Below, piece after piece: positions 13,707 through 39,501 of a stretch of DNA of 64,000 bases. The position numbers were made by a program, and so were the translations under genes. This DNA is from Pseudooceanicola onchidii (GTDB lineage: Bacteria; Pseudomonadota; Alphaproteobacteria; Rhodobacterales; Rhodobacteraceae). Within the stretch, counting starts at the first letter, position 1; every line of letters begins with the position of its first letter. Where the stretch lies: contig NZ_SPUW01000004.1 in assembly GCF_004959925.1 (NCBI RefSeq), positions 62,001 through 126,000 on the forward strand. Direction: 5' to 3'. The notes under the pieces were generated by a model. It searched no databases and had not been told where the DNA came from. It was given only the letters and a program-made list of their open reading frames with translations.

Positions 13707-13725
13707 GACTGACCGGTTGGTCAGC
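13707..13725. promoter_or_regulatory. TetR-type operator, site A (upstream of TTT system 1)
   Basis: CTGACCGGTTGGTCAG at 13709-13724 is an inverted repeat with 6-bp arms around GGTT, 37 bases upstream of the TctC ATG. It matches the motif Y-TGACCG-S-N-Y-R-GTCAG found at three other places (36852, 39418, 39486), one of them directly in front of the tetR gene. Read as an operator of that TetR protein. Confidence 0.72.
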
Positions 13726-13760
13726 GGCGGTGGATGCCGCCAGTAGTGGAGGAGGAACCC

Positions 13761-14708
13761 ATGAAGAAAATCGTCGCGGCCCTGGCCGCCTGCCTTGTCG
13801 CATCTGCCGTTCAGGCCGAGGACTACCCCGCCGAAACCGTGACCATCGTCGTGCCCTATTCCGCAGGTGGCGTCACCGACAGCTATGCCCGGATGATCCA
13901 GCCCGCGCTGCAGGAAAGATGGGGCCAGACCGTCATCGTCGAGAACAAGCCGGGGTCGGGATCGATGGTCGGGGCGATGGATGTCGCCCGTGCGGATCCG
14001 GATGGGACGCGCATCCTGATGACGGCCTATGGCGTCATTTCGAACGAAGTACTGATGCCCGACATCCCGTTCGACCTGGCTGACCTGTCGCCGGTCTACA
14101 TGCTGGGCCGCGGGTCCAACATGCTGATCATGCGTCCCGACTACCCGATGGACGACATCACCGACATCGTCGCCTGGGCCAAGGAGCATCCGGGTGAGTT
14201 GAAGCTGGCGTCCTCGGGCGTGGGGGCAAGCCCGCACATCGCGGCAGAATTGCTGGCCAACGTCGCGGGCTTCGACTTCCTGCACATCCCCTACCAGGGC
14301 AGCGCGCCGTCGCGCCTTGATGTGATCGCGGGCCGGGTGGACGGCATGATGGACGGGATCTCTTCGGTGGCCTACGTCGAATCCGGTGACATCAAAGCGA
14401 TCGCCCTTGCCGCCGAGGAACGTCACCCGTCGCTGCCGGATGTTCCCACCTTCAAGGAAAAGGGCATCGACTTCGTCTTCGGGACGATCTTCGGTTTCTA
14501 CGTCCCCAAGGACACCCCGCAAGAGGTTCAGGACGAGATCTTCGCCGCCCTTGATGCCGCGCTGCATGTCCCCGAGACCGAGGCGCTGTTGAACAAGCAG
14601 GGGATGGACACCACCCGCCGGACCCAGGCCGAATTCCAGGAGATCGTGGCCAAGGAACTCGACCAGCTCAAGGAGCTTGTCGCCAAGGGCCGACTGACCC
14701 CCCAGTAA
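13761..14708 (+). CDS. tctC: TTT transporter solute-binding protein TctC/Bug family (system 1)
   Basis: A 315-residue periplasmic protein with a signal peptide (M-K-K-I-V-A-A-L-A-A-C-L-V-A-S-A-V-Q-A, cleavage before E-D). The mature N-terminus has the Bug hallmark V-P-Y-S-A-G-G-V-T-D, then V-E-N-K-P-G-S-G-S. It binds a carboxylate, often citrate or another di/tricarboxylate, for the TctAB permease encoded next. Start at ATG 13761 behind GGAGGAGG; the upstream in-frame codons are not signal-peptide-like. Under a TetR-type operator and followed by a 13-bp-stem hairpin. Confidence 0.94.
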   Translation: MKKIVAALAACLVASAVQAEDYPAETVTIVVPYSAGGVTDSYARMIQPALQERWGQTVIVENKPGSGSMVGAMDVARADPDGTRILMTAYGVISNEVLMPDIPFDLADLSPVYMLGRGSNMLIMRPDYPMDDITDIVAWAKEHPGELKLASSGVGASPHIAAELLANVAGFDFLHIPYQGSAPSRLDVIAGRVDGMMDGISSVAYVESGDIKAIALAAEERHPSLPDVPTFKEKGIDFVFGTIFGFYVPKDTPQEVQDEIFAALDAALHVPETEALLNKQGMDTTRRTQAEFQEIVAKELDQLKELVAKGRLTPQ

Positions 14709-14717
14709 CATGTGTCA

Positions 14718-14747
14718 AAACCCCGGCGCGCGATCGCGCCGGGGTTT
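14718..14747 (+). terminator. Strong hairpin between tctC and tctB
   Basis: AAACCCCGGCGCG (14718-14730), loop CGAT, CGCGCCGGGGTTT (14735-14747): a perfect 13-bp stem starting 10 bases after the tctC stop. The TTT at its base resembles an intrinsic terminator with a short tail. As tctBA follow without an obvious new promoter, it probably acts as a partial terminator giving more binding protein than permease. Confidence 0.75.
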
Positions 14748-14776
14748 CTGACTGAAAAAGGAAAAGGTTGAGGGTG

Positions 14777-15232
14777 ATGCGTTCTATTTGGTCAAAAGAT
14801 GTGGCGACGGCCGTGCTCATCATCGTGCTGGGCGTGGCCGTTCTGCTTTACGCGCAGGGGCACTACAAGTTCGGCAGTTTCAGGTCTCCGGGACCCGGCC
14901 TGTTCCCGGTCCTGGTATCCGGCGTTCTGGCGGTCGTGGGCGTCGGCCTGTTGATCCAGGCGCTGATGCAGGGGACCGCGCCCGAAGACGTCCGGTTCGC
15001 CTGGCGCCCGTTCATCCTGATCCTCGGGGCCATCGCGGTCTTTGCCGTCACGTATCCCGTGACCGGGGTCGCGCCCTCCGTCTTTCTGATGGTGATCATC
15101 AGCAGTTATTCCGACAATAAGCTGCCCCTGAAGAACAAGGTCCTGCTGGCATCGATCGTGACGGTCATCGCGGTGGTCCTGTTCACAATGATCCTCGGCG
15201 TCAGACTGCCTGTCATCGCGGGGGTCTGGTAA
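14777..15232 (+). CDS. tctB: TTT transporter small permease subunit TctB (system 1)
   Basis: A 151-residue membrane protein with four hydrophobic helices and the TctB-typical loop F-R-S-P-G-P-G-L-F-P after the first one. With TctA it forms the membrane part of a TTT carrier. ATG 14777 has GAGGG just upstream; a TTG at 14768 in frame is possible. The stop codon abuts the tctA ATG. Confidence 0.92.
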   Translation: MRSIWSKDVATAVLIIVLGVAVLLYAQGHYKFGSFRSPGPGLFPVLVSGVLAVVGVGLLIQALMQGTAPEDVRFAWRPFILILGAIAVFAVTYPVTGVAPSVFLMVIISSYSDNKLPLKNKVLLASIVTVIAVVLFTMILGVRLPVIAGVW

Positions 15233-16768
15233 ATGTCGACCATTCTTGACAATGCGATGCTGGGACTGGGCGTCGCCTTTCAGCCCTACAACCTTGCCTT
15301 CTGCTTCCTCGGGGTCTTCCTTGGAACTATCCTTGGCGTCATTCCGGGCATCGGTGTGCTGGTCTCGATCTCGCTGCTGTTCCCGATCACCTTCCATGTC
15401 GAACCAGTTGCCGCGCTGGTGCTGCTGGCAGGCATCTACTATGGCACGACCTACGGCGGGTCGACCTCGGCCATCCTGTTGAACGTGCCGGGCACGCCGT
15501 CGTCGGCGGTGGCCTGTCTGGACGGGCATCCGATGGCGCAGAAGGGCCGGGCGGCCACGGCGCTGTTCATGACCACCGTCGCGAGCTTCTTCGGCGGGTC
15601 GGTCGGGATCATCATGCTGATGGGCTTTTCGCCGGTCATTGCCGCCTCTGCCGTGCAATTCGGATCGGCAGAGTATTTCGCGCTGATGGTTCTGGGCCTG
15701 ATCGCCGCGTCGACCATCGCCTCGGGGTCGATGTTGAAGGGGATCGCGATGGTCCTGATCGGCATCCTGATGGGGCTGGTCGGATCGGACGTCTATACCG
15801 GGACCCTGCGCTTCACCTTCGGACAAATGGCGTTGTTCGAAGGCATCTCGATCATCGCGCTGGCCATGGGCATCTTCGGCGTGACCGAGGTGATCCATTC
15901 GGTTCTCAACATCAAGAAGGCGGGTGAGGCGAACCACGACCTGTCGTTCCGCGCCATGCTGCCGACCAGGCAGGAGATGCGCGACAGCTGGATGCCGATG
16001 ATCCGCGGGTCGATGATCGGGTCGTTCTTCGGTGCATTGCCCGGAACCGGTGGCCTGATCGCGGCCTACATGAGCTACGCGACGGAAAAGCGGGTCGGCA
16101 AGACAGAGACATTCGGCAAGGGCGCCATCCAAGGCGTGACGGGGCCCGAGTCGGCCAACAACGCCGCCGACCAGACCGCCTTTATTCCGACGCTGACGCT
16201 TGGCATCCCGGGCTCGCCGACCATGGCGATCATCCTGGGCGTCCTGATCATCCACGGAATCGAGCCGGGGCCTATGGTCGTGGTCAACCAGCCCGACCTT
16301 TTTTGGGGCCTGGTGATGAGCTTCTGGGTTGGCAACCTGATGCTGCTGATCCTGAACATCCCCATGGTGGGCCTGTGGGTCCGGCTGCTGCGCATTCCGT
16401 TCCACCTGATGTACCCGGCGATCCTGATGTTCATCGTGATGGGTGTCCTGACCACCTACAACGACGAGATACAGGTCTGGGTCGTGCTGATCTGCGGCGC
16501 ATTCGGCTATCTGCTGCGATACCTCGGGATGCAGGCCGCGCCGCTGATCCTGGGTTTCGTGCTGGGCCCGATGATGGAGGAGCACTTCCGGCGGACCCTG
16601 TTGCTGAACGGCGGTGACTTCACGGCCTTTGCGGGCAGCGCGATCTCTCAGGTCTGTCTCGGGGTTTCGGCGCTGTTGCTGGTCTATGGGCTTTTCGTGA
16701 CCTACCGCACACGGCTCAGGACCGTGCAGGCGCAGCGAAGCGTCTCGTCCAGAAATTCACAGGTGTGA
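15233..16768 (+). CDS. tctA: TTT transporter large permease subunit TctA (system 1)
   Basis: A 511-residue polytopic protein (about 11-12 hydrophobic segments) with the TctA motifs G-V-I-P-G-I-G (early), Y-Y-G-T-T-Y-G-G-S-T-S-A-I-L, and later G-A-L-P-G-T-G-G and T-L-G-I-P-G-S-P. It is the main translocating subunit of system 1 and starts one base after the tctB stop. It ends 102 bases before the AlkK-like ligase gene, which may share the transcript. Confidence 0.94.
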   Translation: MSTILDNAMLGLGVAFQPYNLAFCFLGVFLGTILGVIPGIGVLVSISLLFPITFHVEPVAALVLLAGIYYGTTYGGSTSAILLNVPGTPSSAVACLDGHPMAQKGRAATALFMTTVASFFGGSVGIIMLMGFSPVIAASAVQFGSAEYFALMVLGLIAASTIASGSMLKGIAMVLIGILMGLVGSDVYTGTLRFTFGQMALFEGISIIALAMGIFGVTEVIHSVLNIKKAGEANHDLSFRAMLPTRQEMRDSWMPMIRGSMIGSFFGALPGTGGLIAAYMSYATEKRVGKTETFGKGAIQGVTGPESANNAADQTAFIPTLTLGIPGSPTMAIILGVLIIHGIEPGPMVVVNQPDLFWGLVMSFWVGNLMLLILNIPMVGLWVRLLRIPFHLMYPAILMFIVMGVLTTYNDEIQVWVVLICGAFGYLLRYLGMQAAPLILGFVLGPMMEEHFRRTLLLNGGDFTAFAGSAISQVCLGVSALLLVYGLFVTYRTRLRTVQAQRSVSSRNSQV

Positions 16769-16870
16769 AGTTCGGGTTCACATAAGGGTTTTTCTTTGAC
16801 TCCTACCCCGAGGCGTGACGAAATCGACCCAGGGGCGGAGCGGAGGCTGCCCCCATAGGGAGGAGGCCAT

Positions 16871-18523
16871 ATGCTTGGTCTGATGCAGGAGCGGCCGCTT
16901 CTGATTTCAAGTTTGCTTGAACACGCGGCCTGTTATCACGCTGACAGGGAAATCGTGTCCAGGACCTGCGAAGGCCGCCTTCGCCGGGATACGTACCGTA
17001 CGCTTGCACATCGCTCGCGGCAGCTGGCCCATGCCCTGATCCGCATGGGCGTGAAACCCGGCGACCGCGTGGCATCGCTGGCCTGGAACACGCATCGCCA
17101 TCTTGAGCTGTACTACGCGGTTTCCGGCATCGGGGCGGTGTTGCACACGGTCAATCCGCGACTGTTTCCGGAACAGCTGACCTACATCATCAACCACGCC
17201 GGCGCGAAGGTCGTGATGTATGACATCACCTTTGACAAGCTGGTCGCGGATCTGCGCCCGACACTGGATCATGTAAAGACCTATGTCGCCCTGACGGATG
17301 CCGATCACATGGCCGGAATGCCAGAGGGATCGCTGTGCTACGAGGACCTGCTGGCCGCCGAGCCGACCGAATTCGACTGGCCGGTCTTCGACGAGAATAC
17401 CGCATCCGGGCTGTGCTATACCTCGGGGACGACGGGCAATCCGAAGGGCGTGCTGTATTCGCACCGCTCGACCCTGCTGCACGCGATGATGCTGTGTCAG
17501 GTCGACGGTCTGGCGCTGTCCAGCCGTGACGCGACCCTGCTGTGCGTTCCGCTGTTTCATGTGAATGCCTGGGGCGTGCCCTACGGCTCTCCTCTGTGTG
17601 GGGCCAAGCTGGTGCTGCCGGGGCCGAACCTTGACGGGAAAAGCCTCTACGAGCTGGCCAAGACCGAAGGCTGCACCTTCTCGCTTGGCGTGCCGACGGT
17701 CTGGATGGGGTTCCTGGACCATATCGAAAAGACCGGTGCCGATGCGAAGTCCGAGCTGATGATGCAGCGGCTGATCGTCGGTGGATCGGCCGCGCCCAAG
17801 TCGCTGATGCGCAAGCTGGACGATCTGGGCATCCACGCCTTCCAGGCTTGGGGGATGAGCGAGACAGGGCCGGTGGCCACGGTCGCCCATGCCCTGCCGA
17901 AACACGACGCGCTGAGCGAAGAGGCGCGGTTCGACCTGCGCTGCATGGGTGGGCGCCCGATGTTCGGGGTCGAGCTTCGGCTGATCGACGACGAGGGCAG
18001 GGTGCTGGCGCATGACGGCGACACGCCGGGCGAATTGCAGGTTCGGGGTCCCTGGGTCACCTCGGGCTATTTCGGAGGCGAGGGGACGGGTCCGGATGCC
18101 GAGGGTTGGTTTTCGACCGGGGATATCGCGACGGTGGATCCCGACGGCTTTGTGCGCATCACCGATCGGGCGAAGGACGTGATCAAGTCGGGCGGCGAAT
18201 GGATTTCCTCGATCGACCTCGAAGACGCGGCGATGCGGCATCCGCAGGTGGCGGAGGCGGCCGTCGTGGGCGTGCCGCATCCCAGGTGGCAGGAACGGCC
18301 ACTGCTGGTCGTCGTGCCCAAGGGCGACGCGCCGGACAAGGCGGCGCTGCGCGATTTCCTGACCGATTACGTGGCGCGCTGGTGGCTGCCGGACGATGTC
18401 GTGTTCGTCGACGAACTGCCGCATACGGCGACGGGGAAACTTCAGAAGATGGTGCTGCGCAAAGCCTATGCGGAATACGTGCTGCCGGACGTGGCAACGG
18501 GCAACCGGGGGGCGGCGGAATGA
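16871..18523 (+). CDS. AMP-forming acyl-CoA synthetase, AlkK-like
   Basis: A 550-residue member of the acyl-adenylate-forming superfamily. The P-loop reads [11 protein letters not shown], the hinge/A8 region G-W-F-S-T-G-D-I and [13 protein letters not shown], and the catalytic Lys is in T-G-K-L-Q-K. Its beginning ([15 protein letters not shown]) resembles medium-chain fatty acid:CoA ligase AlkK. It activates a carboxylic acid with ATP and CoA. ATG preceded by GGGAGGAGG. First gene of a tight operon with two dehydrogenases, a hydratase and LivGFHM; its TGA overlaps the next ATG. Confidence 0.92.
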
Positions 18524-19644
18524 GCGGGCTGATGCTGGACGATCCCGACGGCACGCTTGAAATGCTGCGCGACAGCGTGGCGGGCTTTGCCGAGCGCTTT
18601 GACGGACCCGAGGGCTTTCGCGCGCGCCGCGACGCCGGGCAGGACCTGGACCGGACGGTCTGGTCCGCCATGGCCGAGGCTGGATGGCTGGGTCTTCACC
18701 TGCCCGAGGAAATCGGCGGCGCCGGGCTGGGCGTGGCCGAGCAGGCCGTGCTGAGCGAGGCGCTTGGCCGGGCGCTGATTTCAGAGCCGCTGGCGCAGCT
18801 GAGTGTTTTTGCCGGTGTCCTGCTTGCGCAGGGCGACGGCGCAGAACGGGACCGGCTGGCTGACGGGCTGATCGCCGGGACCGCGATCGTCTCGCCGGCC
18901 TGGCAGGGGCGTGATGGCGCTCCGGCCCCGCTGGTGGCGCGGGTCCATGGCGAGGACACGGTGCTGACCGGCGCCCTTTGCCATGTCAGCGCGCCTGTAT
19001 CGGCGACGGATTTCGTCGTGCTTGCCGAGGCGGGCGGTGACTGGATGCTGCTGTCGGTTCCGGCCGGGGCTGGCGGGTTGAGCGTGGATGCGGCCCCGAC
19101 ATTGGACGGGGCCCAGCTGGGCCAACTGACGTTCCGGGATGTCAAGGTTCCGGGCAATGCGGTGCTGGCGCGGGGCAATTCGGCCCGTGCGGCGCTCGAG
19201 GCGGCCGTGGCGACGACCCGCTTGGCGCTGGCGGCCGAAATGGCAGGCATCGCGGCCGAAGCGATCGACCGCACCGTCGCCTATACCCGCGACCGTGTGC
19301 AGTTCGGCAAGGCGATCGCGTCCTTCCAGGTGGTGCAACATCGGCTGGTCGACATGTGGTCAGATGCGGAATTCGCCCAGGCCGCTGTGGTGAACGCGGT
19401 CGAAACGCTGGCGGACGGGCCAGGCAAGGCGGCGGATCTGGCGATCCTGGCTGCCAAGGCACGGGCCGGCGACGCGGCGGTGACCATCACCCGGCGGGCG
19501 ATCCATCTGCATGGCGCCATGGGTTTCACCGACGCCTGCGACATCGGGCTTTTCATGAAACGGGCCGTGGCCCTGAATGCAACCCTGGGCCAGCCGGAAG
19601 AGCTGCGCCTGCTATTCGTGGCGCGCGAAGGCGTCGCGGCCTGA
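18520..19644 (+). CDS. Acyl-CoA dehydrogenase, PimD-like small subunit
   Basis: A 374-residue dehydrogenase with a degenerate middle domain and a recognisable C-terminal domain (D-R-V-Q-F-G-K-A-I-A-S-F-Q-V-V-Q-H; H-L-H-G-A-M-G-F-T). The catalytic-Glu loop is absent: the corresponding part reads L-G-Q-P-E-E-L. It likely pairs with the large dehydrogenase at 20429, from which it is separated only by the hydratase gene. ATGA overlap with the ligase gene fixes the start. Confidence 0.88.
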   Translation: MSGLMLDDPDGTLEMLRDSVAGFAERFDGPEGFRARRDAGQDLDRTVWSAMAEAGWLGLHLPEEIGGAGLGVAEQAVLSEALGRALISEPLAQLSVFAGVLLAQGDGAERDRLADGLIAGTAIVSPAWQGRDGAPAPLVARVHGEDTVLTGALCHVSAPVSATDFVVLAEAGGDWMLLSVPAGAGGLSVDAAPTLDGAQLGQLTFRDVKVPGNAVLARGNSARAALEAAVATTRLALAAEMAGIAAEAIDRTVAYTRDRVQFGKAIASFQVVQHRLVDMWSDAEFAQAAVVNAVETLADGPGKAADLAILAAKARAGDAAVTITRRAIHLHGAMGFTDACDIGLFMKRAVALNATLGQPEELRLLFVAREGVAA

Positions 19645-19655
19645 AAGGACAGGAC

Positions 19656-20432
19656 ATGGAAAACAACATGATCAAATGCGAGATCAAGGATCACGTCGCG
19701 GTCATCACGCTGGATGCTCCGCCGGTGAACGCGCAGTCCAAGGACTTCATGGAAGAGCTGATCGCCTGTTTCGACGAATTGAACCACAAGAAGGGCGTGC
19801 GTTGCGTCGTCCTGACCGCCCAAGGCAAGGTGTTTTCGGCCGGCGCCGACATCAAGGGCCGTTCCAAGCAGAGTGATTGGGCCCCCGGTGACATCAACCG
19901 TCACCTGCGCCGCGCCCGCGAAGTGGGCTTTGTCATCATGGAGATGAACATCCCCGTCATCGCCGCCGTGAACGGCCCGGCGCTTGGTGCGGGCATGGGT
20001 CTGGCGATCTGTTCCGACATCATCGTGGCGTCAAAGAACGCCGTCTTCGGCCTGCCCGAGATCGACATCGGCCTGATGGGCGGCGTGCGCCACACGATGC
20101 GCGTCTTCCCGATCGGCCTGACCCGGCGCATGGTGCTGACCGGCTATCGCGTCCCGGCCGAAGAGCTGTACCGCCGTGGCCTGATCGAAGCCTGCGTCGA
20201 ACCCGAAGAGCTGCTGGACACCGCGATGGAGATGGCGAGGAACATCGCCTCGAAATCCCCGACGGCGATCAAGCTGGCCAAGCGCGCGCTGAACACGGTC
20301 GAGACCATGGGCCTGAAGGACGGCTACCGGTTCGAACAGAACCTGACCGTCGAAATGACCGGCACCGCTGACAGCAAAGAGGCCATGGCGGCCTTTCTTG
20401 AAAAGCGTCCGGCCGTTTTCCAGGACGAATGA
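19656..20432 (+). CDS. Enoyl-CoA hydratase
   Basis: A 258-residue crotonase-superfamily protein: F-S-A-G-A-D-I-K-G-R (oxyanion hole, about residue 62), N-G-P-A-L-G-A-G-M-G-L-A, and F-G-L-P-E-I-D-I-G-L-M-G-G carrying a likely catalytic Glu. It hydrates the 2-enoyl-CoA made by the flanking dehydrogenases. Closely similar in layout to the hydratase at 39536 (same length class, same E-I-x-x-G-L motif), suggesting a paralogous pair. Start behind AAAGGAC; overlaps the next gene by four bases. Confidence 0.92.
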   Translation: MENNMIKCEIKDHVAVITLDAPPVNAQSKDFMEELIACFDELNHKKGVRCVVLTAQGKVFSAGADIKGRSKQSDWAPGDINRHLRRAREVGFVIMEMNIPVIAAVNGPALGAGMGLAICSDIIVASKNAVFGLPEIDIGLMGGVRHTMRVFPIGLTRRMVLTGYRVPAEELYRRGLIEACVEPEELLDTAMEMARNIASKSPTAIKLAKRALNTVETMGLKDGYRFEQNLTVEMTGTADSKEAMAAFLEKRPAVFQDE

Positions 20433-21598
20433 CCATGGAGGCGCAGCAGGACTGGAACGCACTGAGCGACGACGCCTTCCGGGAGATCTTCCGGGAGTGG
20501 GTGGACGCGAACTGTCCGTCCGGGCTGCGCTTCATGCGCAAGCAGCGCCCTGTCTTCGACGAAGTGGCCGAGTGGTACCACCTGCTGGCTGAGAAGGGCT
20601 GGCTGTCGCCTGTCTGGCCGCAGGAATACGGCGGCATGGGCCTCGATGCGGGCAAGCACATCGTCTATGTCGAGGAATGGGCGCGCCTCGGCTGCCCGCG
20701 CATTCCCGACCATGGCATCGGCCTGACCGGGCCGCTGCTGATCCAATACGGGACGCCGGAACAGAAGGCCTTCTTCCTACCCAAGATCCTGAGCGGTGAA
20801 CACGTCTGGTGCCAGGGCTATTCGGAACCGAACGCCGGGTCGGACCTTGCGTCGCTGCGGACCTCGGCGGTGGCGGATGGCGACGGGTTCATCGTCAACG
20901 GGCAGAAGATCTGGACCACCCTGGCGCATTGCGCGAACTGGATCCTTCTGCTGACCCGGACGTCGAGCGACGGGCCGAAGCGGCAGAACGGGATCACGGT
21001 AATGCTGGTCGACATGACCACGCCCGGCGTGACCGTCCGCCCGATCCCGAACCTACGGCAGGAGACGGATTTCTGCGAGGTCTTCTTCGACAACGTGCAT
21101 GTCCCCTCCGCCAACGTGGTGGGCGAGGTGGATCAGGGCTGGGCCCTGGCCAAGGCCGTGCTGGGGCACGAGCGCATCTTCCTTGGTGCGCCGTCCCGTC
21201 CGGAATACGCGATCAGGCGGCTTGAACGGCTGGCCCGCGACCGTGGCGCCTTCGACGATGCGGGGTTCGTGGCGCGCTATGCCAAGCTGCGGCTGGATCT
21301 CTACGATCTGGGGTCTGCTTTCGAACGCTTTGCGCGGGTGTTACGGGCCGGCGGCACACTTGGCCCTGACGTGTCGGTGCTCAAGATCTTCTGTTCAGAG
21401 CTGTACCAGCGGATCACCGAAGAGATGCTGACCGTCGCGGGTGAGGATGCGCGGTACTGGGACGACCTGCCCACTGGAGAGGGCGATGTGGATGCAATGA
21501 ACCTGTATCTCGACAGCCGGGCGCCTGCGATCTTCGGCGGCTCGAACGAGATCCAGAGGGGCGTTCTTGCAAAGGGGGTGCTTGGTCTGCCGGGGTAG
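20429..21598 (+). CDS. Acyl-CoA dehydrogenase, PimC-like large subunit
   Basis: A 389-residue dehydrogenase with W-C-Q-G-Y-S-E-P-N-A-G-S-D-L-A and N-G-Q-K-I-W-T-T. The position of the usual catalytic Glu reads I-F-G-G-S-N-E-I (Gly370). The same arrangement is seen in the 9067 protein and, with A-G-T, in the 42446 protein; each has a smaller dehydrogenase nearby. It probably builds a heteromer with the 18520 product. Start at ATG 20429 (ATGA) or the ATG six bases later. Confidence 0.9.
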   Translation: MTMEAQQDWNALSDDAFREIFREWVDANCPSGLRFMRKQRPVFDEVAEWYHLLAEKGWLSPVWPQEYGGMGLDAGKHIVYVEEWARLGCPRIPDHGIGLTGPLLIQYGTPEQKAFFLPKILSGEHVWCQGYSEPNAGSDLASLRTSAVADGDGFIVNGQKIWTTLAHCANWILLLTRTSSDGPKRQNGITVMLVDMTTPGVTVRPIPNLRQETDFCEVFFDNVHVPSANVVGEVDQGWALAKAVLGHERIFLGAPSRPEYAIRRLERLARDRGAFDDAGFVARYAKLRLDLYDLGSAFERFARVLRAGGTLGPDVSVLKIFCSELYQRITEEMLTVAGEDARYWDDLPTGEGDVDAMNLYLDSRAPAIFGGSNEIQRGVLAKGVLGLPG

Positions 21599-21622
21599 AT
21601 CGAGCACGAGGGGAGGAGACGG

Positions 21623-23099: not shown

Positions 23100-23101
23100 C
23101 C

Positions 23102-24909: not shown

Positions 24910-24923
24910 TGCCGCGCCGTGCG

Positions 24924-25703: not shown

Positions 25704-25716
25704 GGGGGTGGCTTCG

Positions 25717-27980: not shown

Positions 27981-27987
27981 TCGGCGC

Positions 27988-28015: not shown

Positions 28016-28036
28016 CTTCCAGAAGACGGTGCTGCC

Positions 28037-31037: not shown

Positions 31038-31561
31038 GCGATCCCAGACTCGAAGCGCTGTTCGACAAGGAGGCGATCCGCGACTGCATCCACCGGTACT
31101 GCCGTGGCATCGACCGCGCGGACGAAGCGGCCCTGCTGTCGTCCTATTGGCCCGATGCGCACGACAGCCACGGGGCCTACGATGGCCCGGTATCGGGATT
31201 TTTCGAACAGGTGCGCGCGACCTGGGCTCGTGGCCCGCGCAACATCCACAACGTCGGCAACATCCTGATCGAGTTCATCGGGAACGGGCAAGCGGCGGTC
31301 GAGACCTATTTTATCGCCTATCAGCGCGGGACGGGGCCCGACGGCGTCGAACGTCAGGTCCTGCTGTGCGGGCGGTACTGCGATCTTTTCGAAAAGCGCA
31401 AAGATGAGTGGCGGGTGCTGAAACGGACGGTCGTCTATGACTGGGTCGATCATCAGCAGCCCCCGTCAGAGGGCGAAGCAGAACGGTTCGGTCCGCGGAC
31501 ACCGATCGGCGGTGACCATCCCGACGATCCGATCTACGCGATCTGGCCGACACGAAGCTAG
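31034..31561 (+). CDS. SnoaL/NTF2-like protein
   Basis: A 175-residue protein with the SnoaL-like start ([17 protein letters not shown]) and the cone-shaped alpha+beta pattern of the NTF2 superfamily ([20 protein letters not shown]). Such proteins act as isomerases, dehydratases or small subunits of ring-hydroxylating systems; here no large dioxygenase subunit is present, so a dehydratase or isomerase role on a pathway intermediate is more likely. ATGA overlap with the synthetase gene. Confidence 0.82.
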
Positions 31562-31589
31562 CGGTATGAGTTCACCCGGAGCGGCACAT

Positions 31590-32081
31590 ATGCAGGACGC
31601 GGTTTCCGAAGCGGAGTACAAGTACGCGATGCGTCGCGTCGTGTCGCCCGTCGCCGTGATCACCGCGAGGTCGGGCACCGCCCGCAACGGGCTGACGGCA
31701 ACCGCGATCTGTTCGGCCACGACCGAACCGCCGACAGTGGTGGTGTGCGTGAACCGCCAGGCCCGGGCTTTGCGCCTGATCGAGGAGAGCGGCACCTTCG
31801 CGGTGAACTTTCTCAGCGAACAGCAGTCAGACCTTGCCCGCACCTTCTCGACCCATGGGCTTGAGGGAGAGACCCGGCTGGGATCGGCAAGCTGGACCAC
31901 GCTGAAGACCGGTGTCCCGATCCTCGCGTCGTCGGTCAGTTCGTTCGACTGCGTGCTGGAAAAGTCGCTGACGCATGGCACGCACGAAGTCCTGTTCGGC
32001 CGCGTCGTGGCCGTCACGAGTACGGAATCCAATGCGCTGCTCTATCGCGACGGGTTCTTCCGTCGCATCGCCCCCGAGTAG
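31590..32081 (+). CDS. Flavin reductase-like (HpaC/RutF) protein
   Basis: A 163-residue flavin-reductase-domain protein: F-A-x-x-x-V-A-V-I-T pattern at the start (M-R-R-V-V-S-P-V-A-V-I-T), N-G-L-T-A-T-A-I-C-S, and F-A-V-N-F-L-S. It would supply reduced FMN/FAD to a monooxygenase. ATG 31590 has GGAG eight bases upstream; ATG 31566 is in frame but lacks a ribosome site. It sits directly before the FMO/BVMO gene, an unusual neighbour because type I BVMOs reduce their own FAD; it may instead serve the LLM oxygenase at 34.7-35.8 kb. Confidence 0.87.
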   Translation: MQDAVSEAEYKYAMRRVVSPVAVITARSGTARNGLTATAICSATTEPPTVVVCVNRQARALRLIEESGTFAVNFLSEQQSDLARTFSTHGLEGETRLGSASWTTLKTGVPILASSVSSFDCVLEKSLTHGTHEVLFGRVVAVTSTESNALLYRDGFFRRIAPE

Positions 32082-32122
32082 GGCGGGCAGGCGCAGTTCA
32101 GATCAGACCGGAGGAGCAGATC

Positions 32123-33757: not shown

Positions 33758-33769
33758 TCTGTACGACAC

Positions 33770-33803
33770 TGGCGGGCAGGCATCGTCCTGTCCGCCATTT
33801 TTT
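33770..33803 (+). terminator. Rho-independent terminator of the 25.9-33.8 kb operon
   Basis: TGGCGGGCAGG (33770-33780), loop CATCGT, CCTGTCCGCCA (33787-33797), then six T residues (33798-33803). The 11-bp stem has one G-T pair. It lies 12 bases after the monooxygenase stop. Confidence 0.88.
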
Positions 33804-33820
33804 ACGGTTCAGGACAAGAA

Positions 33821-33853
33821 ACAGCCCCGTCCCGGTAGGCCGGGCGGGGCTGT
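33821..33853 (-). terminator. Terminator of the minus-strand LLM/reductase operon
   Basis: ACAGCCCCG-T-CCCGG (33821-33835), loop TAGG, CCGGG-C-GGGGCTGT (33840-33853): a 14-bp stem with a single bulge. On the minus strand it is followed by TTTCTT, and it lies 68 bases past the stop of the reductase gene. Together with the plus-strand terminator it insulates the two convergent operons. Confidence 0.75.
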
Positions 33854-33920
33854 GACATGTGAAGGCCGGATCAGGATCGGCCTTCGCTACGTTGCGCGAA
33901 CGGGAGGGAACGCGCTTCGT

Positions 33921-34736
33921 TCATTGCAGGGTCGCAGGCGCCGCAGAAGTCGCCTTGATCACCCCGTCATAGTTCATGAGCGCCGGGCCTTCGCTGGCGT
34001 CGCTGGTCGCGATGACCTGTCCGATCAGCACGGTATGCGTGCCTGCGATCTGCGCCGAGATCGGCGTGCAGACCAGGGTCTGGTGCGAGGTCGTCAGCAC
34101 AGGCGCGCCCGTCTCTGAACTTGTCCACTGGTCGTCGAACCGGTCTGCCCCGCGCAGGCCGGTGCGCCCGGCGAAGGTCAGGGCGACGTCTTCCTGCAGC
34201 CCGCTCAGGATGTTCACGCTGAACACCGGGGCGGTGCTGATCGGGTCATGCGACGACGTCGACCGGTTGAGACAGACCAGAACCATCGGCGGTTCGGCCG
34301 AGACCGAGGTAAAAGCCGAGACGGTCATGCCCCGCCGGTCGTCCCCTTCGCCGCTGGCAACGATGCAGACGCCGCTTGCAAACTTGCGCATCGCATTGCG
34401 GAAGTCGTCGGGGCTGACGGGATGGGTTGCAGGGATCAGGTCGATATGGGCCCTGATCGCCCCTTTCGGTCCTGTCCAGCCCTTGCTTTCCGCATAGGCG
34501 CACATCTTTCCAAAGTCCTCGGTCCAGGCCGGATCCCCGGCCATGGACGACAGGGCGCGGATTGCGTCTGGTCGCACCCAGGCATGGGTCACGGCGTCCG
34601 ACGTCGGCTCGGCAACCGGGGCCAGCGCGGCGATCGCGCTGGACCTTAGCCGTTCGTCGAGGGCGATGGAGAACTGCTTGAAGTCCTCCGGTGCCTCGAG
34701 ACGCGGCGGGGTATCTTTCATCAGGACGATGCGCAT
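33921..34736 (-). CDS. Flavin reductase with N-terminal extension
   Basis: A 271-residue protein. Residues ~107-265 form a flavin-reductase-like domain (F-R-N-A-M-R-K-F-A-S-G-V-C-I-V-A-S; G-M-T-V-S-A-F-T-S-V-S; V-F-S-V-N-I-L-S). Residues 1-106 are an extra helical region with W-T-E-D-F-G-K-M-C-A-Y-A-E-S-K-G-W, absent from the compact reductase at 31590; its function is unknown to me. It starts four bases after the LLM gene stop and so forms a two-component monooxygenase with it: this protein would make reduced flavin, the LLM protein would use it. Confidence 0.87.
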   Translation of the reverse strand: MRIVLMKDTPPRLEAPEDFKQFSIALDERLRSSAIAALAPVAEPTSDAVTHAWVRPDAIRALSSMAGDPAWTEDFGKMCAYAESKGWTGPKGAIRAHIDLIPATHPVSPDDFRNAMRKFASGVCIVASGEGDDRRGMTVSAFTSVSAEPPMVLVCLNRSTSSHDPISTAPVFSVNILSGLQEDVALTFAGRTGLRGADRFDDQWTSSETGAPVLTTSHQTLVCTPISAQIAGTHTVLIGQVIATSDASEGPALMNYDGVIKATSAAPATLQ

Positions 34737-34740
34737 GGCG

Positions 34741-35817
34741 TCACGCGTTGACGGCCTTGGCCGTCACAGTTTCAGTGCCAAGCGCCTTCTTGATCGCCGG
34801 GATGATCGTGTCGCCCCAAAGCTCGATCTGCTTGAGCATGGTCTTCTGGTCGAAATCGCCCAGCTGGGTCTGAAGCGCGATGTGCTTTGGCTTGAGGATC
34901 TCGATCTCGGCCAGCATCCGGTCAATGACCTGATTCACGCTGCCCACGGGCAGGTTGGCGGCCATTTCGTCCAGGCTCATTTCCTTGTTCAGCGGCACCT
35001 CCTGCATAAGATAACCGTCATCGGTCTGTTGGCGGCGGTCCCGCAGGCTTTCCGACAGGCGGCGGGCAAACCGGGCACTGTCAAGGTAGCTTTCGATTTC
35101 TGATTTGTTGTCCGACGCATAGCCGCAGCGAAGGAAGCCAACTTTGGTGTCATCAAGGTTGGTACCGGCGGCGTCTGCAGAGTCCTGAAGCTTGTCGCGC
35201 AGGCCCCGGATCGCGTCCAGATCGCCATGCAGAACGGTGACGAACAGGTTGTGCCCTTCCTTCATCGCACGCTCGCGCACCTTGGGGTTGCCGGTGGTCA
35301 CCCAGATCGGCGGCATCGGATCCTGCACGCAGCGGACCGAGATCGAGCTGGGCGGGATGTCGAGGTACTTGCCGTGGTATTCAAAAATGTGTTCTTTCAG
35401 GGCCAGCGGGATCAGGTCCATGTATTCCTGAAACATCGGGCCGGCCTCGGCCAGGTTGGTGCCGAAGCGCTCGAATTCGAATTCCTGGTAGCCCGACCCG
35501 ATGCCAAGCTCGAGCCGACCATTCGATACCGTATCCACAAAGCCGACCTCGGCCAGGAAACGCGCAGGGTGATAGAGCGGCAGGATGCAGACGGCAGAGC
35601 CCAGCCGGATCTTCGACGTCTTGCCTGCGCAATGCGCCACCGTCATCAGCGGCGAAGGCGACAGGGAGTAGTTGTTGAAGTGGTGCTCGGCATACCAGGC
35701 GGCGTCGAAGCCTGCCTGCTCGGCAAGCACGGTCTGTTCGACCGAGTTGTCGATGACCTCTTTCGAGCTCTGCTTGTAGTTGCGCTGCTGCGCGAGTGTG
35801 AAAACACCGAACTCCAT
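34741..35817 (-). CDS. Luciferase-like (LLM) flavin-dependent monooxygenase
   Basis: A 358-residue TIM-barrel oxygenase of the bacterial luciferase family: E-F-G-V-F at the start, F-D-A-A-W-Y-A-E-H-H-F (residues ~38-48), P-L-Y-H-P-A-R-F-L-A-E and R-L-E-L-G-I-G-S-G-Y. Members use reduced FMN and oxygen on long-chain aldehydes, cyclic ketones (type II Baeyer-Villiger) or sulfonates. Start at ATG 35817 behind GGGAGGAA; the longer open frame runs through the divergent lysR gene and is rejected. Coupled to the flavin reductase downstream. Confidence 0.9.
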   Translation of the reverse strand: MEFGVFTLAQQRNYKQSSKEVIDNSVEQTVLAEQAGFDAAWYAEHHFNNYSLSPSPLMTVAHCAGKTSKIRLGSAVCILPLYHPARFLAEVGFVDTVSNGRLELGIGSGYQEFEFERFGTNLAEAGPMFQEYMDLIPLALKEHIFEYHGKYLDIPPSSISVRCVQDPMPPIWVTTGNPKVRERAMKEGHNLFVTVLHGDLDAIRGLRDKLQDSADAAGTNLDDTKVGFLRCGYASDNKSEIESYLDSARFARRLSESLRDRRQQTDDGYLMQEVPLNKEMSLDEMAANLPVGSVNQVIDRMLAEIEILKPKHIALQTQLGDFDQKTMLKQIELWGDTIIPAIKKALGTETVTAKAVNA

Positions 35818-35850
35818 TGCGATTCCTCCCTTGGTGCAACTGTCGGACCC

Positions 35851-35887
35851 AAGGTAACTTCTTTTGAAATTCGCCTTAATAAGGTAA
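35851..35887. promoter_or_regulatory. Candidate LysR-regulator binding region
   Basis: In the 105-bp gap between the LLM and lysR genes, AAGGTAA occurs twice in direct orientation 30 bp apart (35851-35857 and 35881-35887). The second is part of the perfect inverted repeat CCTTA-A-TAAGG (35874-35884). Sites one or more helical turns apart between a lysR gene and its divergent target are the classic arrangement for this family. Confidence 0.5.
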
Positions 35888-35922
35888 TATCGATCAACAC
35901 CTTTTCGTAAAATGGAAAAGCG

Positions 35923-36855
35923 ATGGACAAGCTGAGAGCGATGGAGCTTCTGGTGGCGACCGCGGAAACCGGCAGTTTTTCGGCCGCCGGCCGTCGCTTC
36001 AACTTGTCTCCAGCCAGCGTCTCCCGGCATGTGTCGGACCTGGAGGCGCATCTTGGCGTGACGCTGGTGCACCGGTCCACACGGAACCTGACCTTGGCCG
36101 AGGCAGGGGAAACCTTCGTCGCGCGCGCCGAGGGCATCCTGGCCAGCATCCGCGCCGCCGAAGCCGACACCGCGTCGCTTCAGGATGTGCCGCGTGGCGT
36201 CTTGCGGGTGCATTCCCGCACGATGTTCGGCATCGCGGTCCTGGCCAAACTGCAAAGCGACTTCGCCGCGCTTTATCCCGAGGTCACCGTGGAGCTTCAC
36301 CTGTCGGAACGGCCCGCCCGGTTGCGGGAAGACGGATTCGACCTCGACTTCCGGATTGCGCCGCCGCAGGAGGCCGGTCTGATGCGCCGTCGTCTTTTCG
36401 CCAGCGAAAGGGTCCTGATTGCGTCGCCCGAGTATCTGGCGCAGGCGCCGACGCTGACTGCGCCCTCCGACATCCGGCACCATGCCTGCCTGCCCTACAT
36501 CCTGGGACCGGACACGGCATACTGGCGGTTCATGAAAGGCGGCGAGATCGAAGAGATCGCTATTTCGGCGGCTTTTGCATCCAACAACGGCCAGGTGATC
36601 CTTGAAGCCGCAAGGCGCGGGCATGGCATCGCCCTTCTCGACGAATACACGGTGGCCGAAGACCTGAGGGAAGGTCGGCTGGTGCGCCTACTTCCGGACG
36701 TCCGCGTGACAAACGCAACATTCGAGGAAGGTATTTTCGCAACCTTCCTGGAAACCGTCCAGGTCCCCACGAAACTGCGCGTGTACCTCGATTTTGTTGC
36801 TGCCTCGTGGCAACGGTTTGCGGGGCTGACCGATAATGTTGCGCCGCGGCATTGA
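35923..36855 (+). CDS. LysR-family transcriptional regulator
   Basis: A 310-residue regulator with an N-terminal winged helix (A-M-E-L-L-V-A-T-A-E-T-G-S-F-S-A-A-G-R-R-F-N-L-S, residues ~6-30, then P-A-S-V-S-R-H-V) and a LysR substrate-binding domain (~90-295). Divergent from the LLM/reductase operon and most likely its regulator. Its stop codon TGA (36853-36855) forms the first bases of the TetR-type operator in front of the next gene. Confidence 0.93.
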   Translation: MDKLRAMELLVATAETGSFSAAGRRFNLSPASVSRHVSDLEAHLGVTLVHRSTRNLTLAEAGETFVARAEGILASIRAAEADTASLQDVPRGVLRVHSRTMFGIAVLAKLQSDFAALYPEVTVELHLSERPARLREDGFDLDFRIAPPQEAGLMRRRLFASERVLIASPEYLAQAPTLTAPSDIRHHACLPYILGPDTAYWRFMKGGEIEEIAISAAFASNNGQVILEAARRGHGIALLDEYTVAEDLREGRLVRLLPDVRVTNATFEEGIFATFLETVQVPTKLRVYLDFVAASWQRFAGLTDNVAPRH

Positions 36856-36867
36856 CCGCCCGGTCAG
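36852..36867. promoter_or_regulatory. TetR-type operator, site B (upstream of tetR)
   Basis: TTGACCGCCCGGTCAG, containing the perfect inverted repeat TGACCG-CC-CGGTCA (36853-36866) and followed by TCA. It lies 47 bases upstream of the tetR start at 36914, as expected for self-repression, and overlaps the lysR stop codon. Same motif as at 13709, 39418 and 39486. Confidence 0.75.
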
Positions 36868-36913
36868 TCACGCCGTAAGCTGTTTTGACCGTTGCGATCA
36901 AGGGCTGCTGAGC

Positions 36914-37537
36914 ATGAAGGACGATCCGAAATCCATGATATCCGGGGAAGGTGATGCACCTGCCTACAGCCCCCGCGTCCTGGAAATCCTCGAAGTCGGC
37001 GCGCGCATTTTCGCAGAAAAGGGTTTCGACGCCGCGACCATGCGGGACGTGTCCGAGGCCTCGGGCGTGTCGAAGGCGCTGCTGTACCATCATTTCGAAA
37101 GCAAGGATCAGTTCTTTGCCCAGATCGCGACGCGGTCGGCGCGGCGTCTGAACGATTTTGTCATCGAACGCATTCCCGAGCAGGGCACGGCGGCCGAAAA
37201 GGTCCGTGCGTTCATGATCGCCATGGCCGAGTTCTTCCAGGAATACAGATGGGCCTGGATCGCGGCGAGCACCGCATTCTGGAATGATCCGGACCGGCAC
37301 CGCCAGGCCGAACGCATGGAACGGCGGGCCCAATTGGAACACACGCTGCGGGACCTGATCCGCGAGGGCGTCGACAACGGCGAGTTCAACGAGATCGATC
37401 CCGCCATGACCGGCCGTCTGATCCTGTCGGGTATCAACTGGATGCACCGTTGGTACAACCCGAAGAAGGAAATGACCGCAGCGCAGATCGTGGACGCGTA
37501 CTTCGGCATCCTGCTGCAGGGCCTGGCAAAGCGCTAG
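36914..37537 (+). CDS. TetR/AcrR-family transcriptional regulator
   Basis: A 207-residue protein: N-terminal TetR helix-turn-helix (A-R-I-F-A-E-K-G-F-D-A-A-T-M-R-D-V-S...S-K-A-L-L-Y-H-H-F-E-S-K-D, residues ~24-70) and an all-helical ligand domain. I choose ATG 36914 (AAGGG nine bases upstream); an in-frame ATG at 36836 would place the operator inside the gene. The regulated genes suggested by the shared palindromes (TTT system 1, the lone tctC, the 39.5-kb operon) make an acyl-CoA or related intermediate the likely ligand, but this is inference. The stop codon shares the bases CTAG with the stop of the convergent SDR gene. Confidence 0.92.
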   Translation: MKDDPKSMISGEGDAPAYSPRVLEILEVGARIFAEKGFDAATMRDVSEASGVSKALLYHHFESKDQFFAQIATRSARRLNDFVIERIPEQGTAAEKVRAFMIAMAEFFQEYRWAWIAASTAFWNDPDRHRQAERMERRAQLEHTLRDLIREGVDNGEFNEIDPAMTGRLILSGINWMHRWYNPKKEMTAAQIVDAYFGILLQGLAKR

Positions 37538-38319
37538 TCCGCCATCCGCTTCCGAGGGATGTGGGTCATCAGCGTTCGCGTAAAGCCTCCGTCCACCAGG
37601 ATTTCCGCACCGTTCACGTAATCGGCCCGGTCACTGGCCAGGAACAGCACGGCGTCCGCGATGTCCTGCGGCGTTCCGATCCGACGGGACGGCACCACGT
37701 TCTCGCGGGCTTCCCTGTCCATGGGGTCGGCGTAGAACCGTTCGCTGAGGGGCGTCAGGATCAGCCCAGGGCTGACCATGTTGCTGCGAAGGCCCTCGGG
37801 CCCCCATTCCACGGCCTGTTGCTGGGTCAGCATCGACAAGGCCGCCTTGCCGGGCGAATAGGCGGACCCAAGCGGAACCGCGTGCGTGGCCGCGATGGAC
37901 GAGATGTTGACGATTGCGCCGGGCTGCCCGGGTGCGCGGAGCTTGCGGAACGTCTGCGCCGTCAGCAACGCCGCCGTCATGTTGACGGTCATCTGGAGGT
38001 TGAAATCCGCCTCGCTGACATCGGCCAGCGCCGATGGCAGGGACATCGCGGCAACATTCACCAGGATCGTCGGGGCGCCTGAGGTTTCGGCTGCGGCCCG
38101 GAGTGTCGGAGCGATGGACGCGGTGTCCGACAGATCAAGGGGCCGCGCGACATGGCCGGGCCCAAGGGACTCGGCCGTGCGCGCAAGGCCGTCGGCGTCG
38201 CGGTCGAATATCGCAAGCCTCACGCCTTCGGCGGCGAAGCTGCGGGCGATGGCACTGCCGATGCCGCCGGCGGCGCCGGTGACGAAGGCGATGCGGTTTT
38301 CGAGGTTCAGCCAGCTCAT
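37534..38319 (-). CDS. Short-chain dehydrogenase/reductase
   Basis: A 261-residue classical SDR: T-G-A-A-G-G-I-G (residues ~14-21), N-V-A-A where N-N-A-G is usual, catalytic Y-S-P-G-K, V-N-G-A-E-I-L-V-D-G-G near the end. F-D-R-D after strand 2 favours NAD(H). Encoded downstream of the tctC gene on the minus strand, separated by a hairpin, so probably same transcript and same TetR control. Converts a hydroxy/keto pathway intermediate; substrate unknown. Confidence 0.9.
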   Translation of the reverse strand: MSWLNLENRIAFVTGAAGGIGSAIARSFAAEGVRLAIFDRDADGLARTAESLGPGHVARPLDLSDTASIAPTLRAAAETSGAPTILVNVAAMSLPSALADVSEADFNLQMTVNMTAALLTAQTFRKLRAPGQPGAIVNISSIAATHAVPLGSAYSPGKAALSMLTQQQAVEWGPEGLRSNMVSPGLILTPLSERFYADPMDREARENVVPSRRIGTPQDIADAVLFLASDRADYVNGAEILVDGGFTRTLMTHIPRKRMAD

Positions 38320-38326
38320 GATGGTG

Positions 38327-38348
38327 CGCGCCGGGCTGCCCCGGCGCG
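38327..38348 (-). terminator. Intercistronic hairpin after tctC (minus strand)
   Basis: CGCGCCGGG (38327-38335), loop CTGC, CCCGGCGCG (38340-38348): perfect 9-bp stem between the tctC stop and the SDR start, no T-run. Same placement as the hairpins after the other binding-protein genes. Confidence 0.6.
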
Positions 38349-38365
38349 ATCCTTTGTATCAGATG

Positions 38366-39340
38366 TCATTCTAGGGTGATGTTGTTGTCCGTGACGACCT
38401 TGCCCCAGAACTCCTTGTCACTGTCCAACTGGGCCTGAAGGGCGTCCGCACCACCCACCTGGGGGGTCATCCCGACCTTGAACATCTTGTCCTGAAGGTC
38501 CTGATCCTGCATCGCGTTCTGGACCGCAGTGCTGACCTTGGAGGTCATCTCGTCCGGGGATCCGGCCGGTGCCATCACGCCGAACCAGAAGGACGACACC
38601 AGGCTCGGAAAGCCGAGTTCGGTCGTCGTCGGCAGATCGGGGAACTGCTCCATCCGCTCGGGCGTGGTCACTGCGAGGATCTTGATGTCGCCGGCCTTCT
38701 GATGTTCGAGCAGCGAAATCGGGGACGAGAAGTTCAGCTCGTTCTGGCCGCCGATCATATCGACAAGGCTTGACGGGTTGTTGCGGTAGGCGACATCGTT
38801 CATCTCGACGCCCAGTTCCTTCTTCAGGGTCAGGCCGAACAGGTGGGTCACGCTGCCGGGGCCAAGCGTCGCGTAGCGCAGCGGCTTGCCGGTCTGCTTG
38901 GCGTAATCGGCCAGACCTTCGATCGTGTCCACGCCGATCGCGGTCGGTACTGTCACCGTCAGCGGACCGCTGAGCATCGTGGCCACAGGTTCAAAGCTGT
39001 CGAACCCATAGGGCAGGTTCGGGCGCAGCAGGATGTTGAGAGAGATCGGGCCGGTTGCCCCGATCAGGTAGGTCAGACCGTCGTTTTTGGCCGCGGCGAC
39101 ATAGGATGCGCCGATGATTCCATTCGCGCCGGGCTTGTTTTCCACCAGGACGGTTTGACCGAGCTCGGTGGTCATCATGTCGGCAACCTGCCGGACGATT
39201 CCGTCGATTAGACCGCCGCCGCCATAGGGCACGACAAGGGTGATCGGTTCGTCTGATTGGGCGACTGAAGCCTGGGGTAGGCCAAGCGCGACGGTGGCGC
39301 CAACCGCAGCAATCGCGGCACGGCGAGTCAGTTTGAACAT
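38366..39340 (-). CDS. tctC: TTT solute-binding protein TctC/Bug family, without adjacent tctBA
   Basis: A 324-residue periplasmic protein with a signal peptide (basic M-F-K-L-T-R-R, hydrophobic core, cleavage near S-V-A-Q-S at about residue 28) and the Bug motif V-P-Y-G-G-G-G-L-I-D, then V-E-N-K-P-G-A-N-G. No tctB/tctA follows on its strand; the incomplete tctBA pair at 46716-48700 is the natural partner. GGAGGAGAAA precedes the ATG. Divergent from the 39.5-kb operon across a gap with two TetR-type palindromes. Confidence 0.94.
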   Translation of the reverse strand: MFKLTRRAAIAAVGATVALGLPQASVAQSDEPITLVVPYGGGGLIDGIVRQVADMMTTELGQTVLVENKPGANGIIGASYVAAAKNDGLTYLIGATGPISLNILLRPNLPYGFDSFEPVATMLSGPLTVTVPTAIGVDTIEGLADYAKQTGKPLRYATLGPGSVTHLFGLTLKKELGVEMNDVAYRNNPSSLVDMIGGQNELNFSSPISLLEHQKAGDIKILAVTTPERMEQFPDLPTTTELGFPSLVSSFWFGVMAPAGSPDEMTSKVSTAVQNAMQDQDLQDKMFKVGMTPQVGGADALQAQLDSDKEFWGKVVTDNNITLE

Positions 39341-39415
39341 AATTTCTCCTCCATTTTCAGGCTTTTAAACCCGTTCTCCGTAGGTAGCTGCCACGGATGA
39401 ATGCATAGACGCTAG

Positions 39416-39435
39416 GACTGACCGGACAGTCAGTC
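39416..39435. promoter_or_regulatory. TetR-type operator, site C1
   Basis: GACTGAC-CGGACA-GTCAGTC is a 20-bp inverted repeat with perfect 7-bp arms in the tctC/hydratase divergent gap, 76 bases upstream of the tctC start. Core CTGACCGGACAGTCAG (39418-39433) fits the shared motif. Confidence 0.72.
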
Positions 39436-39485
39436 AATCTTGAATTTCCTGTTGTCAGCCATTTTGCCGGGTGCTACCTATTGGG

Positions 39486-39501
39486 CTGACCGGCTGGTCA
39501 G
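39486..39501. promoter_or_regulatory. TetR-type operator, site C2
   Basis: CTGACC-GGCT-GGTCAG, perfect 6-bp arms, 34 bases upstream of the hydratase ATG and followed by TCA as at sites B and C1. It differs from site A in one base. Two sites in this gap would allow separate control of the two divergent operons. Confidence 0.74.

Follow-up and report, generated by a model that had tools for sequence, protein, structure and literature searches.

In the 64,000-nucleotide stretch of the Pseudooceanicola onchidii genome analysed here (contig NZ_SPUW01000004.1, positions 62,001 to 126,000; the whole stretch is referred to as the window), a TetR-family protein is very probably a PfmR-type repressor that acts at four operators and governs a regulon for acid uptake and beta-oxidation-like breakdown, as judged from sequence comparison. 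With this reading, a catabolic island of ~36 kb that had no annotation becomes a single regulon open to testing, with a named regulator and a likely class, and it would tie two tripartite tricarboxylate transporters (TTT1 and TTT2) to one pathway. A first-pass annotation of the letters alone had linked the four sites to this TetR protein on the ground that one of them adjoins its gene. The assignment now goes beyond proximity, because three lines agree: the sites and gaps are conserved in relatives, the motif is abundant where the TetR cluster is present, and the closest homologue that has been characterised has a matching measured consensus. It is a case of a sequence-only motif reading that holds up against comparative data.

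The four sites and the TetR protein

The four 16-mers of the first-pass annotation were all found exactly, starting at 13709 (site A), 36852 (site B), 39418 (site C), and 39486 (site D). They lie 34–77 bp 5' of start codons, namely 36 bp before tctC1 (A), 46 bp before tetR (B), 77 bp before tctC2 (C), and 34 bp before ech, whose ATG is at 39536 (D). This bears out the proposed placement, with one site before TTT1, one before tetR, and a pair where tctC2 and the hydratase operon diverge. Sites A, C, and D are wholly noncoding, and site B holds the stop codon of lysR (36853–36855). With up to two mismatches, 17 matches were counted in the window (palindromes scored per strand) against a mean of 2.1 and a maximum of 9 in shuffled sequences.

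Each site is located close to promoter-like hexamers. Site A is immediately 3' of TTGATC-N17-TATCCT and site D is immediately 3' of TTGTCA-N17-TACCTA. At site B, TTGACC is a −35-like hexamer for tetR, and at site C the complement of the abutting GTCA and its next base reads TTGACT, a −35-like hexamer for tctC2 followed by N17 and TAGCGT. The hexamers were chosen by a simple score and are weak, with 7–8 of 12 positions matching. A separate promoter scan, which covered 13500–17000 only, did not list the pair at site A.

Membership of the regulator in the TetR family is indicated by PF00440 (63.8 bits, cut-off 24) and PF17932 (78.9 bits, cut-off 26.4). Among the TetR equivalogs of NCBIfam, 21 families matched and none exceeded its cut-off (the best was the ScbR family with 61.8 bits, cut-off 150). 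The best match in the Protein Data Bank (PDB) was chain 3vpr (114 bits), which is PfmR (TTHB023) of Thermus thermophilus HB8, with 35% identity over 182 amino acids (E 2e-36). The chain was equated with TTHB023 because the aligned sequence matches the gene on pTT27 and the site coordinates in the corresponding paper fall just upstream of that gene. The two proteins share a near-identical stretch (SKALLYHHF against SKAALYHHF), which we take to be the recognition helix. In Table 1 of PMC7022988, the measured consensus of TTHB023 is CTGACCGATCGGTCAG with a dissociation constant (KD) of 2.1 nM, and single changes raise KD to 4.6–279 nM. The 16-mer CTGACCGATCGGTCAG itself occurs in the cluster of Bradyrhizobium (G300 and G301), Gemmobacter, and genome G137, and in Oceanicola at 22 kb from tetR.

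By sequence, the four window sites appear to be operators of the PfmR type, as do the 64 distinct sites collected over the relatives and the window, and site B would be the own-promoter site. The PfmR regulon reported in Table 5 of the same paper comprises acyl-CoA dehydrogenase, ligase, and reductase- or short-chain dehydrogenase/reductase (SDR)-like genes, and its own promoter is bound (PMC7022988). The operator consensus, the own-promoter site, and acyl-CoA genes as targets (predicted ones in the window) are common to both systems. They differ in that the listed Thermus regulon is without a TTT transporter while the proposed window regulon has two, in that the Thermus regulator gene is the first of an operon that includes its targets while the window tetR stands apart, and in the natural Thermus sites, which read TACCGACCGGTYGG.

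SbtR (TTHA0167) of T. thermophilus has the consensus TGACYRNNYRGTCA, which is of the same motif class, and a second, slower complex is also reported (PMC4948773). FadP of Burkholderiales is likewise a TetR repressor of beta-oxidation genes; better growth on adipate upon its deletion is reported (PMC12543098), and it is described as unique to betaproteobacteria (PMC5343134). The actinobacterial KstR2 structures 4w97 and 4w1u are solved relatives of the window TetR with a lower score than PfmR (64 bits vs 114). KstR2 presumably controls a local regulon of CoA-thioester catabolism through an operator different from that of the window. A literature search (open-licence PMC, top-ranked matches) gave no paper on the present regulon among the matches listed. 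The arrangement proposed here, a local PfmR-like TetR regulon, is well supported and of a familiar type.

Specificity and conservation of the sites

As checks, the first-pass annotation had proposed a genome-wide motif scan and a comparison of the same gaps in related genomes; in the former the strict motif was confined to the four sites, and in the latter the sites were mostly kept in place. Specifically, exact matches to TGACCGSNYRGTCA in the 3.67 Mb genome are solely the four window sites (one matching both strands). This pattern was derived from the four sites themselves, and looser patterns thus weigh more. The pattern TGACYRNNYRGTCA occurs exactly at 7 places, 4 of them in the window (reversed control, 1), and CTGACYRNNYRGTCAG at 3 places, all in the window (control, 0); site B starts with T and hence misses the latter. 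A position matrix was trained on 50 distinct sites, which had been selected with TGACYRNNYRGTCA from 35 loci of relatives and did not include the window. It placed the window sites at ranks 1–4 in the window (27.2, 23.4, 21.9, and 17.1), and the next-best score, 9.8, comes from site A read in a shifted register.

The three further TGACYRNNYRGTCA matches of the genome do not fit the regulon. C1:508607 is inside open reading frames (ORFs), C1:300862 is 5' of an ORF that looks by eye like uvrB, and C3:686557 is in a likely promoter beside a different TetR-like ORF. The last one reads TTTGACCGATTGGTCAAA (L155 1501–1514), which we assume to resemble a RutR-class site.

For comparison, the 80 top-ranked of 96 loci around TetR relatives were taken, together with segments of four family genomes. 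Near TetRs of at least 41% identity, 638 kb of sequence contained 53 matches to the pattern TGAC[CT][GA]N2[CT][AG]GTCA, and 32 of the 35 loci had one or more. Of the three remaining loci, two are short pieces (3.6 kb) whose genomes are also represented by longer loci. The same pattern did not occur near remote TetRs (823 kb, 49 loci), a control in which some loci are AT-rich and 32 of the 49 (557 kb) exceed 60% GC. The relatives of 41–79% identity, from Rhodobacteraceae, Phyllobacteriaceae, and Bradyrhizobium, mostly have such sites in the equivalent gaps, and one search for the sites covered 13 distinct genomes (G092 and G296, with the same contig and places, were counted once).

Two exact sites 67–84 bp apart are present in the tctC2/ech gap of the window, Oceanicola, P. 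nanhaiensis, Albibacillus, Sulfitobacter, genome G153, Zhengella, a metagenome-assembled genome of Phyllobacteriaceae, Aquamicrobium, and 8 of 23 Bradyrhizobium loci. Over 13 taxa, the mean identity of the core columns is 0.89–0.90 compared with 0.45–0.52 in the 40-bp flanks; these taxa were chosen for having both sites exact, so that the core identity is high partly by construction. What counts is that the flanks have changed around sites that kept their positions. The GTCAA after site C, which is outside the search pattern, has an identity of 0.92–1.0 in the same taxa. In the tetR gap, TGACC-N4-GGTC is kept in 10 of 11 taxa (by eye).

A counterpart of site A is present in the equivalent gap before TTT1 in Albibacillus and in P. 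nanhaiensis, in the latter ~119 kb from its tetR, and a variant form, CTGACTAACCGGTTAGTCAG, takes this place in one Sulfitobacter and one Pseudosulfitobacter genome. All five genomes with a close TTT1 (the window counted) thus have such a palindrome before it, two of them in the variant form. In P. nanhaiensis (L140 9346–10041) no more than a short stub separates the operator-like site and start from tctB1, and the annotation of Pseudosulfitobacter (L163 14551–15338) shows only short fragments resembling TctC and TctA behind the variant. TTT1 looks to be decaying in both, with the site kept. Oceanicola has one site each at a TAXI-type TRAP transporter and at the 88% orthologue of the hydratase gene at 19641–20432, and given this orthologue's own site the regulon may reach beyond the genes named in the first-pass annotation.

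Plasmid records absent from the matrix training served as a held-out test. In the Pseudosulfitobacter plasmid (70% TetR identity), the tctC2/ech gap contains two exact sites and a site with one mismatch precedes tetR. In the plasmid of Sulfitobacter W027 (58%), the same gap again contains two exact sites, and a third exact site precedes tetR. Motif abundance in 198 family genomes was counted by hand. The 5 genomes with the TetR together have 11 copies of the 16-mer, and the 193 without a close TetR have 44, spread over 39 of them. The latter count corresponds to 0.23 per genome, which is near the chance level of 0.22 (equal base frequencies, 3.67 Mb); the reversed pattern occurs 30 times in the same 193.

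The cluster is plasmid-borne in Pseudosulfitobacter and Sulfitobacter W027. In Albibacillus it wraps the ends of the 422-kb contig C28 (L143 and L145), with the monooxygenase at the start and lysR near the end, and this contig may be a circular replicon. Zhengella (L142) has two TetR copies (10326–10892 and 19517–19999) of 65–66% identity to that of the window, ~9 kb apart in one cluster.

Proposed regulation and alternative explanations

In the proposed mechanism, the TetR would be a homodimeric, autoregulated repressor that binds CTGACCGnnCGGTCAG-like operators at four promoters. Operator B would control tetR itself, operator C tctC2 and the SDR gene, operator A the TTT1 genes (tctCBA1), and operator D the divergent 10-kb hydratase operon, which is predicted to run from ech through the synthetase, the acyl-CoA dehydrogenase pair, the SDRs, and tctBA2 to the lactonase. 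At B and C the operator would cover the −35-like hexamer and the spacer, and at A and D it would lie just 3' of the −10-like hexamer, placements from which a block to RNA polymerase would follow at all four. TetR proteins that sense CoA thioesters are known, and on this basis the inducer is most likely an acyl-CoA, probably a CoA thioester made by a synthetase of the cluster. Its binding would release the TetR, so that an organic acid would be taken up and broken down in a beta-oxidation-like manner. The acyl-CoA that releases the TetR is likely a pathway intermediate and hence a route to the substrate.

By their scores the acyl-CoA dehydrogenases are nearest to PimC/PimD- and IpdE2-like subunits, but every one of these scores is below the curated cut-off, and the ligase family scores are also below the cut-offs except for one broad fatty-acid CoA ligase subfamily; therefore, the genes are not assigned to a named pathway. 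Pimelate-like dicarboxylates are handled by some TTT binding proteins (PMC8102459). Because of this and the leaning of the dehydrogenase scores, a dicarboxylic or cyclic acid is a tentative guess for the substrate, and a branched acid is also conceivable.

Several observations weigh against a single-TetR regulon of this kind. In the genome itself, TGACCGSNYRGTCA with one mismatch is unspecific (96 strand matches vs 48 in the reversed control), and among 29 other 3-kb pieces of the genome the matrix gave 17.5 (L012) and 16.7 (L009), at the level of site B. The motif class is common to other TetRs such as SbtR, as its consensus TGACYRNNYRGTCA indicates, and is not unique to the window TetR, given that C3:686557 adjoins a different TetR-like ORF. 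In the relatives, 15 of the 23 Bradyrhizobium loci have a single exact site in the tctC2/ech gap, Aquamicrobium (45% TetR identity) has no site in its tetR gap, and the nearest TTT of Oceanicola (TctC 57% and TctA 75% to TTT1) has no exact site. Remote sites with no clear target occur in Zhengella (C74), Gemmobacter (C2), and Oceanicola (C34:162863). In the held-out set, the Roseomonas plasmid (50%) has one exact site, which lies where tetR and an isomerase gene run toward each other and not at a promoter, and before tetR it has only a match with two mismatches. Sulfitobacter W074 (40%) has two sites with one mismatch before the hydratase gene and none exact, Variovorax (39%) has one intragenic match with one mismatch and no exact site, and Comamonas (34%) has no site. 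The pairing of TetR and site is weaker from ~50% identity downward.

A shared regulon, in which the TetR binds and a second TetR of this motif class would occupy some of the sites as well, is rather unlikely. Sharing has a precedent in Thermus, where SbtR and TTHB023 have sites in common and the motif class is found in several TetRs, as reported. The P. onchidii genome, on the other hand, encodes 7 other TetR relatives at E ≤ 0.001, all weak (best 1.3e-7), and holds only three other TGACYRNNYRGTCA places.

The neighbouring LysR protein is a less probable binder still. Site B sits between lysR and tetR, and LysR (E ≤ 1e-70) occurs in 5 of the 198 family genomes, the same 5 as the TetR, and in all 10 further genomes searched, which is a further point against the TetR. 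Since both genes occur together, however, their co-occurrence cannot separate the two. The arrangement in G137 and Gemmobacter speaks for the TetR, for LysR is there 6.6 and 13.4 kb from the TetR and the site stays between the TetR and the hydratase gene; so does the identity of the 16-mer with the consensus tabled for a TetR homologue, TTHB023. In addition, lysR is divergent from a luciferase-like monooxygenase gene pair, and a divergent neighbour is a usual place of a LysR target. The Roseomonas plasmid has the TetR and a site with no annotated LysR in 24.6 kb, which counts little as the site is not promoter-placed.

Activation by the bound TetR is very unlikely. Sequence does not tell whether a bound regulator activates or represses, and the hexamers are weak matches, but sites A and D, downstream of −10-like hexamers, are in a blocking position, and in Thermus 2 of 4 tabled target genes rise in the mutant with the other 2 unchanged (PMC7022988, Table 4). 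Chance occurrence of the sites, or their conservation for another reason, is hardly credible: the motif is short, unspecific with one mismatch, and as single sites near the chance level across the family, yet the strict motif is at four places only, and the relatives' loci, the gap conservation, the matrix ranks, and the held-out plasmids all argue for operators of the TetR.

The third half-site and the genes of the island

In all four window sites a further half-site, TGAC or GTCA, adjoins the 14-base core without a gap, so that the element reads TGACTGAC...GTCA or the mirror image of it; this feature is new in this analysis. Among the 64 distinct sites (39 loci), which are not independent because of close Bradyrhizobium strains, an exact third half-site was found at the abutting offset in 31 and at offsets 1–7 in 0 or 1. 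At site C it doubles as the −35-like TTGACT. The natural TTHB023 sites, such as TTTACCGACCGGTTGG, are like the extended form, and the −153 site is identical to site A at 15 of 20 positions. In PMC7022988, 4 of 7 tabled natural sites have KD values of 0.3–1 nM, tighter than the consensus obtained by systematic evolution of ligands by exponential enrichment. The third half-site possibly accommodates a second dimer or offers an alternative register. A broader proposal is tentative and somewhat doubtful: a three-half-site operator (TGACTGACC...GGTCAG or its mirror), occupiable in two overlapping registers 4 bp apart, would have been conserved from the Thermus PfmR sites to alphaproteobacteria and would have come to serve different kinds of transporter, TTT in the window and a TAXI-type TRAP in Oceanicola, as the uptake step of the pathway changed.

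The coordinates of the sites and genes are listed in Table 1.

Table 1 Positions of the candidate operators and genes of the proposed regulon in the window.
Feature	Positions	Strand	Basis or remark
Site A	13705..13724	+	16-mer 13709–13724 and abutting TGAC half-site; 20-mer CTGACTGACCGGTTGGTCAG
tctC1, TTT substrate-binding protein	13761..14711	+	PF03401
tctB1	14768..15232	+	Named by place in TTT operon; no NCBIfam match
tctA1	15233..16768	+	Place, and 84–88% identical proteins in relatives' TTT1 sets; no NCBIfam match
Candidate further targets: acyl-CoA ligase, acyl-CoA dehydrogenase small subunit-like, enoyl-CoA hydratase, acyl-CoA dehydrogenase large subunit-like	16871..21598	+	
lysR	35923–36855		Adjoins tetR on its 5' side
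Site B	36852..36870	+	16-mer 36852–36867 and abutting GTCA; overlaps lysR stop codon
tetR, proposed PfmR-like regulator (207 aa)	36914..37537	+	PF00440 and PF17932
SDR oxidoreductase	37534..38319	-	Downstream of tctC2
tctC2, TTT substrate-binding protein	38366..39340	-	PF03401
Site C	39418..39437	-	16-mer 39418–39433 and abutting GTCA
Site D	39486..39504	+	16-mer 39486–39501 and abutting GTCA
ech, enoyl-CoA hydratase family	39536..40306	+	NF005073, above cut-off
Acyl-CoA synthetase, NDP-forming type	40308..42449	+	Below family cut-offs
Acyl-CoA dehydrogenase pair, PimC-large-like and IpdE2-like	42446..44634	+	Both below family cut-offs
Two SDR proteins	44627..46647	+	
tctB2 and tctA2	46716..48700	+	PF07331 (tctB2), PF01970 (tctA2)
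SMP-30/gluconolactonase family protein	48693..49625	+	Final gene of the run

The second TTT carrier is split, with tctC2 in the predicted operon C and tctB2-tctA2 in the predicted operon D. A 102-nt gap separates TTT1 from the run headed by the acyl-CoA ligase, which is AMP-forming; this run may be part of the regulon too, and the gap could hold its own promoter. In the gap between tctC1 and tctB1 (14712–14767), a GC-rich inverted repeat followed by TTT was seen by eye and is not in the terminator-scan listing. It is perhaps a partial terminator that yields more binding protein than permease.

A third TTT set at 51110–54971, with TctC-, TctB-, and TctA-like genes at 51946, 52911, and 53451, follows a GntR regulator and an amidohydrolase and is without an exact site of the 16-mer motif. 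Runs that combine acyl-CoA dehydrogenase and enoyl-CoA hydratase genes occur three times in the window (8800–13227, 18490–21598, and 39536–44634), which suggests a duplicated catabolic module.

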